From Vulgatibacter incomptus (lineage in GTDB: Bacteria > Myxococcota > Myxococcia > Myxococcales > Vulgatibacteraceae), in the NCBI RefSeq assembly GCF_001263175.1, contig NZ_CP012332.1, positions 2,663,501 through 2,727,500 on the forward strand: 64,000 nucleotides of DNA, read 5' to 3'. Numbering within the stretch: position 1 is the first letter of the stretch; the number at the start of each line of letters is the position of its first letter. The position numbers and the translations under genes were made by a program. This document shows, piece after piece, positions 40,386 to 46,393 of this stretch. The notes beneath the pieces are model-generated. The model did no database searches and was not told the origin of the DNA. It worked only from the letters and a program-made list of their open reading frames with translations.

Positions 40386-40703
40386 ATGCACGCATTCGTC
40401 TACAGGCTGGTGGAACGGCTCACCCACGAAGGCCCGGCGCTCTCGCGCAACCGGCATTTCCACACGTTCGCGAGCCCGGAGGGCAAGCAGGCCCTCCGGA
40501 TCGCGCGGCGCCTGCGATCCATCGCCCGCGACATCGCCGCCGCGCCGAAGCCGCCGGGGCTCGCCCGCGATCGAGGCCGGGTCCGGCTGGAGATCCCCAT
40601 CGCCTCGGGCGTACGCACGGCCCTCCTCGACGACGCGGAGTGGCAGCTCCTGCACCGCATGCCGGCCGTACGAGCGGCTCTGCCGAACGACCTCCCTAAC
40701 TAA
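40386..40703 (+). CDS. small protein of unknown function (105 aa)
   Basis: Not recognised. It is basic, with an N-terminal helix-rich half (FVYRLVERLT) and a strand-rich C-terminal half (RVRLEIPIASGVRTALLDDAEW). Codon use is like its neighbours, with strong third-position G/C, which favours a real gene. The start ATG has a GGCGGAT stretch upstream. It stands alone between the M16 peptidase and a LuxR-type regulator. Confidence 0.55.
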   Translation: MHAFVYRLVERLTHEGPALSRNRHFHTFASPEGKQALRIARRLRSIARDIAAAPKPPGLARDRGRVRLEIPIASGVRTALLDDAEWQLLHRMPAVRAALPNDLPN

Positions 40704-40787
40704 GCCTGGACGGAACCGGCACCGGCGGCAGTGTTCCCCGGACCGTTTCCTGGTTACTATTCCGGCTTCGCAACACGGGGGAGCCCG

Positions 40788-41693
40788 ATGGAACCGATCG
40801 GAAGCGGTCGTGGCCCGATCTCGAGGGACTGGCTCCAGTCGGCCCTGCGAGGATTCATGCGCGCGAGCGGCGCTCCGGCCGGCCTCCTCGCCGACCTGGA
40901 CGCGCCCTTCCTCGGGCCGTCGTCGGTGGCGAACCACGGGATCTCCGGCGAGGCCTGGCTCGTGGCGGTGAAGCAGGCGGCGCTCGCAGCCGATCTCGAG
41001 CCCGTCCCCGGTCCGGCGCGCACGCACTTCGTCGCAGTCGACGACGACCACGGCCAGCCGAAGCTGCTGGTGCTCCACGGGGAGTCGGGGCGATGGCGCA
41101 CCCTCGCCCTCGCCTTCGGCGGGAGCGCATCGGACCCGGCCGTCCGCCGCGCGATCTCGGAGGCGCTCGAGAGGCCTCCGCCCGCAGTCCATCCTTCGAT
41201 CGCGCTCCTCGACGGGATCGGGCGCCAGACCGGCCTGCCCTTCGCCCTGCTCGAGAAGCGAGAGCTGGCCTGGGCGAACCTGGCGCTCTGGAGCGCGATG
41301 GGGCTCACGGACGGCGCGCAGCTCGGCTCGGCCTTCCTGAGCCCGAAGACGCTGCTGATCTCCACCCGGATCGAGGCCGCAGCGCGCGGCGAGCTCTCGC
41401 TCCCCGGCCTCGTGCTGTCGCCCCTCCCCAACGGCGCCCAGCTCGTCCAGGCGGCGGATCCGGAGGAGAAGCTGCGCGCAGCGCGGTTCGACCGGCTGGT
41501 GAGGACGTGGGGGCTCACCCTCACCGAGCGCCACGAGCTGACCCACATCCTCCAGGGCCGCCCGTCGAAGGAGGCCGCACGGCTGGACGAGGTCTCTCCC
41601 GACACCATTCGCGAGCGCCGCCGCCGGATCTACAAGAAGGCCGGCGTGGGCGGCGCGGGACCCTTGCGCGCCCTCCTAGGCGGGCTTTCCTAG
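40788..41693 (+). CDS. LuxR-type HTH regulator with unrecognised sensor region
   Basis: 301 aa. The last 60 residues (WGLTLTERHELTHILQG, then a recognition helix VSPDTIRERRRRIYKKAG) follow the LuxR/GerE HTH pattern. The first 230 residues are an alpha/beta region with no named family I can see; no receiver aspartate. ATG 40788 follows GGGGGAG. Its stop is 4 nt inside the end of the convergent receiver-DUF4388 gene. Probably a ligand- or protein-modulated DNA-binding regulator. Confidence 0.72.
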   Translation: MEPIGSGRGPISRDWLQSALRGFMRASGAPAGLLADLDAPFLGPSSVANHGISGEAWLVAVKQAALAADLEPVPGPARTHFVAVDDDHGQPKLLVLHGESGRWRTLALAFGGSASDPAVRRAISEALERPPPAVHPSIALLDGIGRQTGLPFALLEKRELAWANLALWSAMGLTDGAQLGSAFLSPKTLLISTRIEAAARGELSLPGLVLSPLPNGAQLVQAADPEEKLRAARFDRLVRTWGLTLTERHELTHILQGRPSKEAARLDEVSPDTIRERRRRIYKKAGVGGAGPLRALLGGLS

Positions 41694-43063
41694 ACCAAAG
41701 CGGCGCCGAGGAGCTCCCGGAGGGCCGCGACCGGGTCGGGAGCCGCCAGGCGCAAGGGGACGCCCGATGCGCCGAGGACCTCCGCGAGCTCTCCGAAGCC
41801 GGGACCGGTGTCGAGGCTGGTGACGCCCAGGGCACCTGCGGCCAGCGGCGCCCACAGCGGGCGGAGGCCGGCCTCTAGACGGATCCCGACGAGGTCGAGG
41901 ACGACCTCCTCGCCGAGATCGATCGTCGCGAAGGTCCCGAGCTCGCCGGGATCGGCGGATCGGCCGAAGCCCGGGAGCCTCGCGAGGTGCGCGATCGCCC
42001 GGTCGAAGCCTGCCTCATCCGTGAAGGCGACGAGCACCTTCAGTACCCGGCTCGACGGTCGCGACCGGAGGATCCGCTGCCGGAGCGCGTGGAGCTCAGA
42101 GGGGTCCAGGAGCGGCGCCTCGGTCGCGGCGGCGGGGCCGGAGGCGCGCCTCACCGCCCCATCTCGAAGGAGCGCATCCAAGGCCTGAGCCGCCTCGAGA
42201 TCGACCGATTCGCAGCGATCCAGGAGCTCCGCCACGGTGCCGCTCCCCTGCCGGAGCCGGGCGGCGATCTGCGCGGCCGAGCCGGCGAGGGCGCCGCCCT
42301 CCACCGCGAGCTCGAGGCGTTCGCTCCGGCCCGGGAGCCTCTCCGTCACCCGCGCGAGCTCGTCGGAGTGGTGGAGGGCGTCGAGGAGGAGGCGGTCCAG
42401 GCTCAACCCGAACCGGTCGGCAACGTCCGCGCGCCCGGCGTGCACCTCGAAGCTCCCCTCCTCCTGCACGAGCAGGCGGTAGACGGCCTTGAGACCGACG
42501 ATTCCGGACATGCGGGCGTCGTAGATCCGGCCTTCGACGACGTCGACCTCGCCCGAGGCGGAGGCGCCCCGGACGATCAACCTGCACGTGCGCCGGTTGA
42601 TCGCGAAGGCCTGGAGGAGGTCGGGGAGCTTCAGATGCGTGAGGCGCCCCCGCAGCTCGCTCTCGGGATCGGGGGCCGCTCCCCGCGCCCCGCGCAGGAG
42701 CTGATCGATCCGGCCCAGGAGCTCGTCCTGCCGATAGGGCTTTCGCAGGCTCCCTTCCACGTCGGAGAGGAGCGCCGGCGCCGGGTTGCGGCCGGTCAGG
42801 AGGACCGGGATCGCCTCGGTGCGCGGGTTGCTGCGAAGGATCCGGACGAAGGCCGACGGCTCGATCAGCCCGCACGCCTCGTCGATGAGCACCAGGTCCG
42901 GGTGCCGGAGGAGGGTGAGCTGCAGCGCCTGGGATCCGTCGCTCGCCGCGTGGATCTGGAAGCCGCGATCGCGCAGGAGCGGGCCGATCCTCCGAACCGC
43001 CTCGGCGTCCGGATCGGCGATGAGGATCGTCCGGCCCTGTGCGCTAGAAGGTGTGGAGATCAT
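41690..43063 (-). CDS. receiver-DUF4388 protein with a degenerate small-GTPase-like C-terminal domain
   Basis: 457 aa. Receiver domain (about 10-125; acidic pair ADPD, phospho-acceptor Asp61, Lys in LRKPY), DUF4388/PatA-N-like domain (about 135-245; LPDLLQAFAINRRTCRLIV), a helical stretch, then about 335-457. That last part keeps the order of Myxococcota MglA/Rab-like GTPases, with LDLVGIRLEAGLRPLWAPLA where an LxGTPGQxRFxxMW switch II would be and GALGVTSLD for the next strand. The P-loop GxxxxGKT is replaced by AFTDEAGFD, so nucleotide binding is unlikely. It overlaps the upstream GGDEF-like gene by 20 nt. Confidence 0.78.
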   Translation of the reverse strand: MISTPSSAQGRTILIADPDAEAVRRIGPLLRDRGFQIHAASDGSQALQLTLLRHPDLVLIDEACGLIEPSAFVRILRSNPRTEAIPVLLTGRNPAPALLSDVEGSLRKPYRQDELLGRIDQLLRGARGAAPDPESELRGRLTHLKLPDLLQAFAINRRTCRLIVRGASASGEVDVVEGRIYDARMSGIVGLKAVYRLLVQEEGSFEVHAGRADVADRFGLSLDRLLLDALHHSDELARVTERLPGRSERLELAVEGGALAGSAAQIAARLRQGSGTVAELLDRCESVDLEAAQALDALLRDGAVRRASGPAAATEAPLLDPSELHALRQRILRSRPSSRVLKVLVAFTDEAGFDRAIAHLARLPGFGRSADPGELGTFATIDLGEEVVLDLVGIRLEAGLRPLWAPLAAGALGVTSLDTGPGFGELAEVLGASGVPLRLAAPDPVAALRELLGAALV

Positions 43064-44102
43064 AGGTCCGCTGGAGGCGCGTCACGAGGGAGTCGACGAG
43101 GGGGGGATCGCTCGTGTGGAAGGCGAGGTCGTCCCGCCGCACCAGCGCATACGACGACTGCTCGGAGAGGAAGAGCAGGAGCTCGTGGCGGCAGCAGGGA
43201 TCCTCCGCGTCGACGTAGACCGGAGTGAGAGCCGGATGCACCAGGGCCGAAGGGCCCCGCCTCCCGAAGAGGTGGACGCCCCACGAGCCCGCTCCACGGG
43301 GGAGGGCCTCGAGGAGGGGAAGCCAGTCGGCGTGCTCCTTGGGCCCGGACGTGGAAAAGACCAGCCCCCTGCCCTCGCCCTCCCGCGCGACCTCTCGGAG
43401 GATCTCCGCGCGGATCGATCGAAACAGGGAGGGGCTCATGGCGAGGCGCCGGCTCGAGGGATCCTCGGGCCCCCCGGGGTCGAGGACGTGGTCGACGCTC
43501 TGCCAGAAGTCCAGGTTCCGCTTCCGGAGCTCCACCGCCGGCGAGAGCCGGCCGAGGCGGCTGCGCTCGCGGCAGCGGTGGAGGAGCGAGTCCACGTCCC
43601 GGCCGTCGCGGCCGTGGGTGGCTGCGCCGGGCTCCAGGGCCACGACCTGGGCGCCGGCGATTCCGCGGCTGGCGAGGTCCTCCTCCGCGGCGGCGAGGGC
43701 CCTTCGCTGGAACATCAGCGCGCCGAAGTGATCCGTCTCGGGGAGCAGCACGACGAGCTCGTCGTCCGAGAGCCTCGCCACCACGTCCACGTCGCGGGCC
43801 ACCCGGCCGACCGCGCCGGCGATCCCGCGGAGCAGGGAGCGGGCGGCCTCGGCACCCAGCGTCTTCTGGAGCATCGGGAGCGCGTCCACCCGGAGGAGCA
43901 CGAGCGCAAAGGAGCGCCCATAGCGCTGGGCGCGCTGGACCTCCTTCGCCGCATATTCCCCGAAGAACGACGGCCCATGCGCGCCCGTCTCGGGATCGCG
44001 CAGGTCCGGGAGACGAGCCGGATGCACGGGCCGAGTCTCGTTGCGCAGGTGGCTGGTGTCAAACGGTCCCTCGGCTCCGGGCATCCAGGGCGGGCGCGTC
44101 AA
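43044..44102 (-). CDS. degenerate GGDEF-domain protein
   Basis: Up to 352 aa. Residues about 38-170 have the GGDEF domain layout (GPSFFGEYAAKEVQRAQRYGRSFALVLL, then ARLSDDELVVLLPETD), but the signature GGDEF is LSDDE, so diguanylate cyclase activity is unlikely. Residues 180-352 are an unassigned region. The start is uncertain: TTG 44102 overlaps the upstream stop by 4 nt, an ATG lies at 44084 and a GTG at 44027; codons for GPFDTSHL come from the short TTTGACACCAGCCA repeat. The C-terminus overlaps the downstream gene by 20 nt. Confidence 0.72.
   Translation of the reverse strand: MTRPPWMPGAEGPFDTSHLRNETRPVHPARLPDLRDPETGAHGPSFFGEYAAKEVQRAQRYGRSFALVLLRVDALPMLQKTLGAEAARSLLRGIAGAVGRVARDVDVVARLSDDELVVLLPETDHFGALMFQRRALAAAEEDLASRGIAGAQVVALEPGAATHGRDGRDVDSLLHRCRERSRLGRLSPAVELRKRNLDFWQSVDHVLDPGGPEDPSSRRLAMSPSLFRSIRAEILREVAREGEGRGLVFSTSGPKEHADWLPLLEALPRGAGSWGVHLFGRRGPSALVHPALTPVYVDAEDPCCRHELLLFLSEQSSYALVRRDDLAFHTSDPPLVDSLVTRLQRTYDLHTF
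44046..44068 (-). repeat. short TTTGACACCAGCCA repeat, copy 2
   Basis: Identical over 23 bp to 15277-15299, minus orientation. It falls in the N-terminal coding region, or just upstream if GTG 44027 is the start, of the degenerate GGDEF gene. Within it TTGACA is followed at 17 bp by GAGACT. Confidence 0.75.
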
Positions 44103-46393
44103 TATCGGAGCTCGCTCCGGACGGCGACCAGCCGAAAGCCAACTCCCTCCCGCTGCATCTCCAGGGTCACCGGCGTCCCCACCGGCCCCCGGATCCGGTC
44201 CACGGCGAGCTGGAGCGCTCCGCCGAGCGCCATGCCGTCCACCGCCAGGATCACGTCGCCCCGCCGCATCCCCGCGACGAAGGCCGGCCCGCCGCCCACG
44301 ACCTCCGCCGCGACCACCTGCCCCCGGTCCAGGCCGATCGTGAGGCCGATCCCGCCGAAGACCTCCTCTCCGGGCCCGTCGCCGCGAGGGGGCAAGCGGA
44401 TCTCGACGCGGGACGGGCTCCCCTCCCGTACGTCGACGATGGCCGGTGGCACGAAGCCGTGTCCGGACGCATAGGCGAAGACCGGCATCCGGCCCGGGGC
44501 AACGCCGGACAGCCGGAAGGATCCGTCACCTCCGGTCAGGGTCTGGGGCGCCTTCGGCACGTCGGCCGCCTGCCCGAAGGCGAAGGTGCCGGATCTCGAG
44601 AGCGACACCCGCGCGCCGGCGAGCGGGGACCCGTCTTTCGCGTCGAGGACCACACCCTCGATCACGCCGCCCTCCTCCAGCTCCAGCACGACCTGGGGCG
44701 AGTCGCCGCGATCCGGGACTACCGCCCGCGCCGTGGCCACTCCCGTCCCGCGGGCGCTCGCCCGAACCTCGTACGCGCCCGCCGGAAGACGGAGCCGGAA
44801 CCGGCCGTCCGGCGAGAGGATCGCCTGGCTCGTTGCGCGTCCCCTCCCGGGCTCCAGCGGCGAGGCGGCCACGACGAAGTCCGACGCGGGACGCCCCTGC
44901 CGCAGGACCAGGCCGGAGAGCGCGCCGCCCGAGAGCGTCACGGTCACGTCTCCTTCGTTCGCGAAGATCCCCCGGAGCCCGCCAGCGAGCTCCTCGGCGG
45001 TCGCCTCGAGGCGCAGGGGGCCGCCGGGGACGCCCCGGAGCTCGAAGAAGCCGTCGGCGCCCGCGCTCGTGTGGGATGCGAGGGAGGGGGGTCCGGCCTC
45101 GGGCCAGACCGCGAGCTCGGCGCCCGGCACGGGCCGCCCCGCAGCGTCGACGGCCCGGCCCTGAAGCACGGCGCCGCCTAGCTGGATGGTGACCTCCGCG
45201 GCTTCGCCCTCGAGGAGCTCGAGCGGACCGACCAGGCCGCGGGCAGCGCCCCGGGCGGCCACGAGCTGCACGAACCCCGCCGGGATCCTCTCGAGGGCGA
45301 AGCGTCCGTCCGATCCCGTGACCGCTTCGGCGATGGTGCGCCCACGATCGACGGCATGGACGCGCGCGCCCACGACGACAGCGCCGGCCGCGTCGTTCAC
45401 GTTGCCCGCGATCCGGCCCGACTCCCCGATCCGGATCACGATCCCCTCGCGGGTCGTGCCGGGGGCGAGCTCGATCGCGTCGCTGTACCCTGTGTCACCC
45501 TTGGTGTCGATCGCCTTCACCGTGACGACGCCGACGGGTGCGCCGACGTCGAAGGAGCCGTCCGGGCGCGAGGTCACGGCGGGATGTCCAGCGACCGAAT
45601 CCAGACGGTAGGGGATCGGGAGCAGCGTCGCTCCGCCGACCGGTGCGCCTGCCGAGTCCACCACACGCCCGCGGATCCGCGCGCCACGGGAGAGCAGGAG
45701 CTCCAGCCCGCCGACGGGGCCGGCGTCCAGCGAGAGCGGGAGCGAGCGGGCCTCGTAGCCGTCCGCCGACGCCGTGAGCTCGACCTCGGCAGGAGGGAGG
45801 CCCTCCAGGCGGAAGGCGCCGACCCGATCGGTTCGGACGGAGACGCCGGCGGCCTGGAGGGTGGCCCCCTCGAGAGCGTCACCCGTGGACGCGTCGCGGA
45901 CCACGCCGAAGACGGATCCGCCCCGCTGCAGCCGGAGGACGAGGCCGCCGAGTTCCTCGCCTTCCGCCAGGGGGATCGGGCCCAAGGGCTCGGAGGAGAG
46001 CGGCCCCTGGCGAGCGACGAGATGGTAGTCGCCCGGTGGAAGGGGGCCCAGGCGGAACGAGCCGTCCGCAGCCGCCGAGGCCACGGCCGCGGCCGCGCCT
46101 CCCTCGGACCGGATCGCGCGGATTTCGGCGCCGCCGGCCGGGCGTGCATCCTGGGTCTGGACCTGGCCGCCCAGGTGGCCGCCACCGAGCCGCTGCGGCC
46201 CCCGGCGCGCGAAGGGGGTCGGCTCCTGCTGGGCCTCCGTGTGGCCGGAGCCGGAGCCCGACGAGGCCGCCGGCTCAGGAGGCGTCGACGGCTCGCGCAG
46301 GAGGAGCATCACGGCCACTGCGGCGAGAGCGAGCGAAGCGGCGATGACGAGACGACGGAGGCGCATGGTCGGACGGGAGGAGCTTGGCCGCAT
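44099..46393 (-). CDS. exported carboxypeptidase-regulatory repeat protein with C-terminal PDZ domain
   Basis: 764 aa. N-terminal signal anchor (LVIAASLALAAVAVMLLL), a Ser/Gly/Pro linker, then about seven carboxypeptidase-regulatory-like beta-sandwich repeats marked by GxVxDAxGxPVxGA and DGSFRLxGLPPG elements (about 75-660). A PDZ domain follows (about 670-760; GGIGLTIGL, RRGDVILAVDG). It is probably anchored in the inner membrane with the repeats in the periplasm. ATG at 46366 is an alternative start. Member of the leftward operon from hpt. Confidence 0.85.
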   Translation of the reverse strand: MRPSSSRPTMRLRRLVIAASLALAAVAVMLLLREPSTPPEPAASSGSGSGHTEAQQEPTPFARRGPQRLGGGHLGGQVQTQDARPAGGAEIRAIRSEGGAAAAVASAAADGSFRLGPLPPGDYHLVARQGPLSSEPLGPIPLAEGEELGGLVLRLQRGGSVFGVVRDASTGDALEGATLQAAGVSVRTDRVGAFRLEGLPPAEVELTASADGYEARSLPLSLDAGPVGGLELLLSRGARIRGRVVDSAGAPVGGATLLPIPYRLDSVAGHPAVTSRPDGSFDVGAPVGVVTVKAIDTKGDTGYSDAIELAPGTTREGIVIRIGESGRIAGNVNDAAGAVVVGARVHAVDRGRTIAEAVTGSDGRFALERIPAGFVQLVAARGAARGLVGPLELLEGEAAEVTIQLGGAVLQGRAVDAAGRPVPGAELAVWPEAGPPSLASHTSAGADGFFELRGVPGGPLRLEATAEELAGGLRGIFANEGDVTVTLSGGALSGLVLRQGRPASDFVVAASPLEPGRGRATSQAILSPDGRFRLRLPAGAYEVRASARGTGVATARAVVPDRGDSPQVVLELEEGGVIEGVVLDAKDGSPLAGARVSLSRSGTFAFGQAADVPKAPQTLTGGDGSFRLSGVAPGRMPVFAYASGHGFVPPAIVDVREGSPSRVEIRLPPRGDGPGEEVFGGIGLTIGLDRGQVVAAEVVGGGPAFVAGMRRGDVILAVDGMALGGALQLAVDRIRGPVGTPVTLEMQREGVGFRLVAVRSELRY

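Follow-up and report, generated by a model that had tools for sequence, protein, structure and literature searches.

A conserved Myxococcota gene pair of a degenerate GGDEF protein with an intact I-site and a receiver-DUF4388 protein: a predicted cyclic di-GMP receptor and its partner

Can two neighbouring proteins that lack the catalytic motifs of familiar signalling enzymes nevertheless form a working signalling unit? The question is raised by two overlapping genes in a 64,000-nucleotide stretch (the window) of the genome of Vulgatibacter incomptus, a single contig of 4,350,553 bases. The first gene, here called G (43044–44102, minus strand, 352 amino acids), encodes a degenerate GGDEF domain followed by a C-terminal alpha/beta domain. 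The second, R (41690–43063, minus strand, 457 amino acids), lies directly 3′ of G and encodes a receiver, a DUF4388 domain, a helical region and a further C-terminal domain. A preliminary description of the window had placed both open reading frames (ORFs), their strand and their 20-nucleotide overlap (43044–43063) correctly, and had seen in them two degenerate enzymes with retained folds and lost catalysis. That picture is incomplete, having overlooked both a complete inhibitory site (I-site) in G and the conserved phosphorylation residues of the R receiver, on account of which G and R look less like two relics than like a functioning receptor for cyclic di-GMP (c-di-GMP) and a response regulator.

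The two nucleotide sites of the G GGDEF domain

Motif counts for G refer throughout to the window plus all 80 homologous loci (n = 81) from a scan of named genomes, in records titled almost all Myxococcota or 'Deltaproteobacteria'. The scan used two peptide patterns (LLPETDxFG and another near the domain start), neither of which spans the active site (A-site) or the I-site. Residues 36–178 (43569–43997, minus strand) have a GGDEF fold: the Pfam family PF00990 matches with E 2.8e-15 in the window and is found in 52 of 52 members, and a model of the protein (mean predicted local distance difference test score, pLDDT, 88.5) matched GGDEF structures in VIA with Z 17.4–21.5 across all 50 rows listed. 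The Foldseek and VIA match lists for the full-length model are filled by this domain. The comparison with known structures that the preliminary description had proposed for G came out in favour of the fold.

The A-site, on the other hand, is lost. When the register is set by alignment to other GGDEF domains, the place of GG(D/E)EF is taken by SDDEL (residues 112–116; 43755–43769, minus strand), one residue away from the LSDDE read there before. The degeneracy itself stands, since the canonical motif occurs in 0/81 homologues including the window, and its second glycine is replaced by an acidic residue in 79/81. At the position of the asparagine with which diguanylate cyclases bind substrate, the family has arginine in 76/81 and asparagine in none, and the substrate positions corresponding to the cyclase Asn-Asp and Gly-Asp are lost. 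The metal-site residue 73 is aspartate in 75/81, and glutamate at residue 115 is nearly invariant. By comparison, eight of the nine further GGDEF domains that this genome encodes retain both GG(D/E)EF and the substrate asparagine. Family-wide loss of catalysis with retention of the fold, as far as can be judged from the residues, is well supported, and to this extent the preliminary description was right. The window itself has glutamine at residue 79 (43866–43868); the arginine conserved there in homologues may have a new functional role. Elsewhere in the genome lies another GGDEF domain that is degenerate, with GPDRI at the motif and RDSD at the I-site (L251, G000:C1:3091407-3091844).

The I-site, meanwhile, is complete. 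The RxxD motif, R103-D-V-D106 (43785–43796, minus strand), stands five residues upstream of the A-site and is present in 81/81 homologues, and a second I-site arginine, R134 (43701–43703, minus strand), follows at +31 from the first and is arginine in 80/81 and lysine in the remaining one. Merely 14 columns are invariant in a 52-row alignment of G, and R103 and D106 are among them. Given that the A-site residues are lost and RxxD is kept across the family, catalysis was probably lost early while the I-site was retained.

A similar combination is found in SgmT of Myxococcus xanthus and PopA of Caulobacter, both of which have a degenerate A-site and an intact RxxD. The GGDEF domain of SgmT binds c-di-GMP at the I-site, with R763 and R794 as the arginines (PMC3509222), and their spacing equals that of R103 and R134 in G. 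The differences are that SgmT, a hybrid histidine kinase, has GGGVF, while the G family has a receiver-GAF-GGDEF architecture (GGDEF alone in the window), adds a further C-terminal domain that is conserved, and has R as its constant neighbour. From these motifs we infer that G binds c-di-GMP.

We therefore favour, with somewhat better than even confidence, the reading that G is a predicted c-di-GMP receptor of the SgmT/PopA type which works together with R. Several observations count against it. RxxD is common anyway in the GGDEF domains of this genome, where seven of nine paralogues carry it. In M. xanthus, the GGDEF protein TmoK is reported neither to make nor to bind c-di-GMP (PMC4877007), the comparison with G being one of description and not of motif. 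Finally, the non-canonical sites AGDEF and SGDEF can be active (PMC3974145). The first two of these would suit a G that is purely a structural scaffold, its GGDEF fold serving dimerisation or partner binding, its RxxD serving the fold or an interface, and c-di-GMP being irrelevant. We regard such a scaffold as unlikely, because both I-site residues are invariant, and the second arginine nearly so, in a family whose members fall to 21% identity with the window protein, and because the other nucleotide chemistry drifted while the I-site stayed. The third observation, that some degenerate GGDEF proteins are active, would suit a G which keeps an unusual activity (weak or different nucleotide synthesis) through Arg79 and an acidic S-D/E-x-E site, and the conservation of Asp73, Glu115 and the arginine speaks for such a replacement site. 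However, the AGDEF and SGDEF variants change the first glycine only, unlike the acidic second glycine of the G family, the substrate positions are gone, and the window's own residue 79 is not arginine; a residual synthase thus seems very improbable to us.

Conservation and architecture of the pair

In relatives, full-length or near-full-length matches to G have 39–47% identity, and R finds matches of similar quality across the phylum. Although adjacency of G and R was no criterion of the locus scan, R is the next gene after G, in the same orientation, at 75 of the 80 loci, and the remaining five are contig ends. The estimated gap has a median of 15 nucleotides and the genes overlap at 7/75 loci, so that the 20-nucleotide overlap of the window is unusual, not unique. 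The conservation of the pair in relatives, which had been proposed as a check, is thus plain: the pair is real and old, and its degenerate GGDEF pattern goes beyond chance because it is kept over 80 further loci. The alignments were of 31 of 41 non-redundant G homologues (A1) and 32 of 47 R homologues (A2), then of 51 of 80 loci (A3) and 50 of 75 (A4) after a redundancy filter and hand thinning, with one R ORF dropped, and, thinned further, of 45 and 41 loci (A5 and A6). One Myxococcus-like G-R locus (L079) comes from a database entry that is labelled, probably wrongly, Comamonas sp. KCTC 72670.

Beyond its GGDEF domain, G has an unnamed alpha/beta domain at residues 217–346 (43065–43454, minus strand), modelled with pLDDT mostly of 80–97. 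It is conserved (Tyr318, for example, is invariant across 52 rows). Apart from GGDEF, Pfam gave only chance-level matches in 52 members, and a sequence search of the PDB up to E 10 returned no match for this domain. The DICT domain (PF10069), considered as a candidate identity, received no support: it gave no match at the G locus of the window genome, none over the cut-off in 97 genomes, and was not among the Pfam matches of the 52 G proteins.

At 78 of the 80 homologous loci the same ORF also carries an N-terminal receiver-GAF region, identified by Pfam in two examples (the GAF domain of L086 being under the Pfam cut-off). This region is absent from the window G, from L208 in a genome of the same family (G001) and from L209 in genome G022. 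Since in the alignment the GGDEF domain of other members of family f6, to which G022 belongs, is preceded by the tail of a GAF-like region, the sequences suggest two separate losses.

The receiver and the C-terminal domain of R

Receiver counts for R are based on 76 sequences, and C-terminal counts on 74, as L102 and L115 are cut before that domain. Pfam identifies both parts of the receiver-DUF4388 module that had been described. The receiver (PF00072; 42677–43033, minus strand) keeps its phosphorylation residues, D17 in 75/76, D19 in 72/76, D61 in 75/76 and K108 in 74/76. Because D17, D61 and K108 are conserved, R looks phosphorylatable and its receiver functional. The DUF4388 domain (42356–42649, minus strand), which we take to be equivalent to PATAN, is matched by PF14332 with E 2.6e-14 and 53.7 bits (cut-off 25), and in 51 of 51 R members (E up to 0.5). 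The model of R has a mean pLDDT of 89.3.

The last domain (about residues 338–457; 41693–42052, minus strand) is harder to place, and is possibly Ras/Arf-like. It has no P-loop: the corresponding place in the window reads AFTDEAGFDR (41999–42028, minus strand), and GxxxxGK[ST] occurs in 0/74 homologues compared with 46/47 MglA-like controls. NKxD is likewise found in 0/74, against 47/47 controls, and a D..GQ pattern occurs anywhere in the domain in 2/74. The missing P-loop had been correctly reported, and loss of nucleotide-binding motifs holds for this protein too, but the GTPase ancestry that would make it a lost catalysis is only suggested. The switch II shape noted earlier survives in part, as R carries RPLW (41852–41863, minus strand; P 74/74, L 72/74, W 72/74), which aligns with the RPLW of Arf1 switch II at a non-significant E of 0.078. 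This Arf1 match was the best that the domain profile gave in the PDB, and the alignment, which spans switch II through the NKxD region, stays colinear for about 60 residues. In the model the order is strand-helix-(short strand)-strand-strand-helix-strand-helix-strand-helix, with the strand pair forming a tight hairpin of nine residues, a two-residue turn and nine residues. Such an order with a strand pair is Ras-like, and the strand pair is not expected in receiver folds.

The 'Rab/MglA-like' label was not confirmed. Against MglA-type sequences (31, then 47) hhalign gave the R domain a probability of 0.2–0.3%, and Pfam found no GTPase match in 51 R homologues and nothing beyond chance in ten isolated C-terminal domains. 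Other searches said little: a phmmer search with the C-terminal domain of L086 alone returned one meaningless match (E 0.57), a profile search of 40 relatives recovered R-family places and otherwise weak matches, and the Foldseek and VIA lists for the full-length model were filled by the receiver. A viral Ran protein matched the full-length model with E 0.058 and probability 0.96, in a list that does not state the domain covered. The sequence comparisons weigh against a GTPase kinship, and Ras-like ancestry is suggested without reaching significance. They would sit well with some other alpha/beta domain, either diverged receiver-like or a new fold, in which the likeness at RPLW is chance; indeed the highest hhalign value, also non-significant, was against a receiver control (2.0–2.8%; E 0.024 local, 0.0055 global). 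We treat this alternative as a tentative one, below even but far from negligible, given that the hairpin is what we would expect in a Ras-like fold but not in a receiver, and that the best profile match is the colinear one to Arf1. A GTPase-like fold for the R domain accordingly strikes us as likely, and to call it a small-GTPase relic is plausible.

A possible mechanism, known systems and the neighbourhood

Taking G as a receptor, we propose that it is a non-enzyme in which c-di-GMP would bind the conserved I-site R103xxD106 together with R134 of a neighbouring domain, and that binding would alter the interaction of G with its co-encoded partner R through the conserved C-terminal domain of G. 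That G contacts R is likewise our inference. R would act as a response regulator with a phosphorylatable receiver, its DUF4388 (PATAN) and P-loop-less domains forming an output that may work by protein contact rather than by GTP hydrolysis. The pair might thereby integrate two inputs, one from a phosphorelay and one from c-di-GMP.

Where such an output would be directed can only be guessed by analogy, and type IV pili or cell polarity are our guess. Among cyanobacterial PATAN-receiver proteins, PixE is reported to bind PilB1, the motor of the pilus (PMC7690835, PMC9090330). PixE and PixG resemble R in having a receiver and PATAN/DUF4388; unlike them, R has the receiver first and adds the P-loop-less domain, and a pilus link by this route is analogy. 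According to another report, the M. xanthus PATAN proteins MXAN_3211 and MXAN_4965 co-occur with the pilus regulator SgmX, and Pseudomonas FimX, a receptor in which degenerate enzyme folds bind c-di-GMP, as predicted for G, acts on PilB (PMC11580455). R could not be mapped to either of the two M. xanthus proteins, and G, unlike FimX, has no EAL domain, so that any PilB link is likewise an analogy. The make-up of FimX is GGDEF-EAL. The comparative data do not help this guess: pilB is present in 59 of 60 relatives with or without the pair, which makes co-occurrence uninformative, and none of the genes neighbouring the pair ties it to pili. MglA was found in 30 of 30 relatives, including some in which a full-length G match is absent, and the pair is therefore not obligatory for MglA.

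A bolder scheme is a switch of two pseudoenzymes, in which the dead cyclase reads c-di-GMP and controls an R whose P-loop-less domain mimics MglA or Arf. R might then compete for, or scaffold, MglB, RomR, SgmX-like partners or the pilus motor. We consider this scheme unlikely. The R domain shares with MglA/Arf-type GTPases a possible Ras-like order and the switch-II-like RPLW, but differs from them in lacking P-loop and NKxD and in having no significant sequence link to MglA. Eukaryotic pseudoGTPases without nucleotide binding, such as CENP-M and the p190RhoGAP domains, have been described (PMC10211241). In the pseudoGTPase, DUF4388 and PATAN literature, represented mostly by titles and the openings of abstracts, we found neither a conserved G-R pairing nor a bacterial P-loop-less GTPase-like domain.

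Receptors with a degenerate A-site and an intact I-site are already known, and G-R is a deeply conserved variant with an unusual partner. To our knowledge, few c-di-GMP receptors are known in M. xanthus. Motility and development of that species are under c-di-GMP control (PMC4877007, PMC11255338). If the favoured reading of G is true, the Myxococcota possess a deeply conserved receptor for this messenger that is apparently uncharacterised and whose partner is fixed. Should R end in a true small-GTPase relic, this would be an example of a pseudoGTPase in bacteria, from a phylum in which the small GTPase MglA runs polarity, and a two-pseudoenzyme switch would further place such a protein under second-messenger control and link c-di-GMP and phosphorelay inputs to motility or polarity.

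Neighbour counts around the pair cover flanks of up to 6 kb, with many contigs cut. Relatives of a 105-amino-acid ORF downstream of the pair (40386–40703) were found at 38/80 loci, of a downstream M16 peptidase at 18/80 and of a downstream histidine kinase at 20/80. In the examples printed these are oriented toward the pair as in the window, and the G-R locus is therefore probably orthologous between the window and its relatives. G begins with TTG, its start overlapping by 4 nucleotides the stop of the upstream gene (44099–46393), which encodes a PDZ domain along with seven repeats of the carboxypeptidase-regulatory type and has relatives at 2/80 loci (L071 and L074), upstream of G there. Another gene (40731–41693) had no match among the 80 loci; it shows a weak LuxR-type helix-turn-helix match and lies between the G-R pair and the shared block of the 105-amino-acid ORF, M16 peptidase and histidine kinase.

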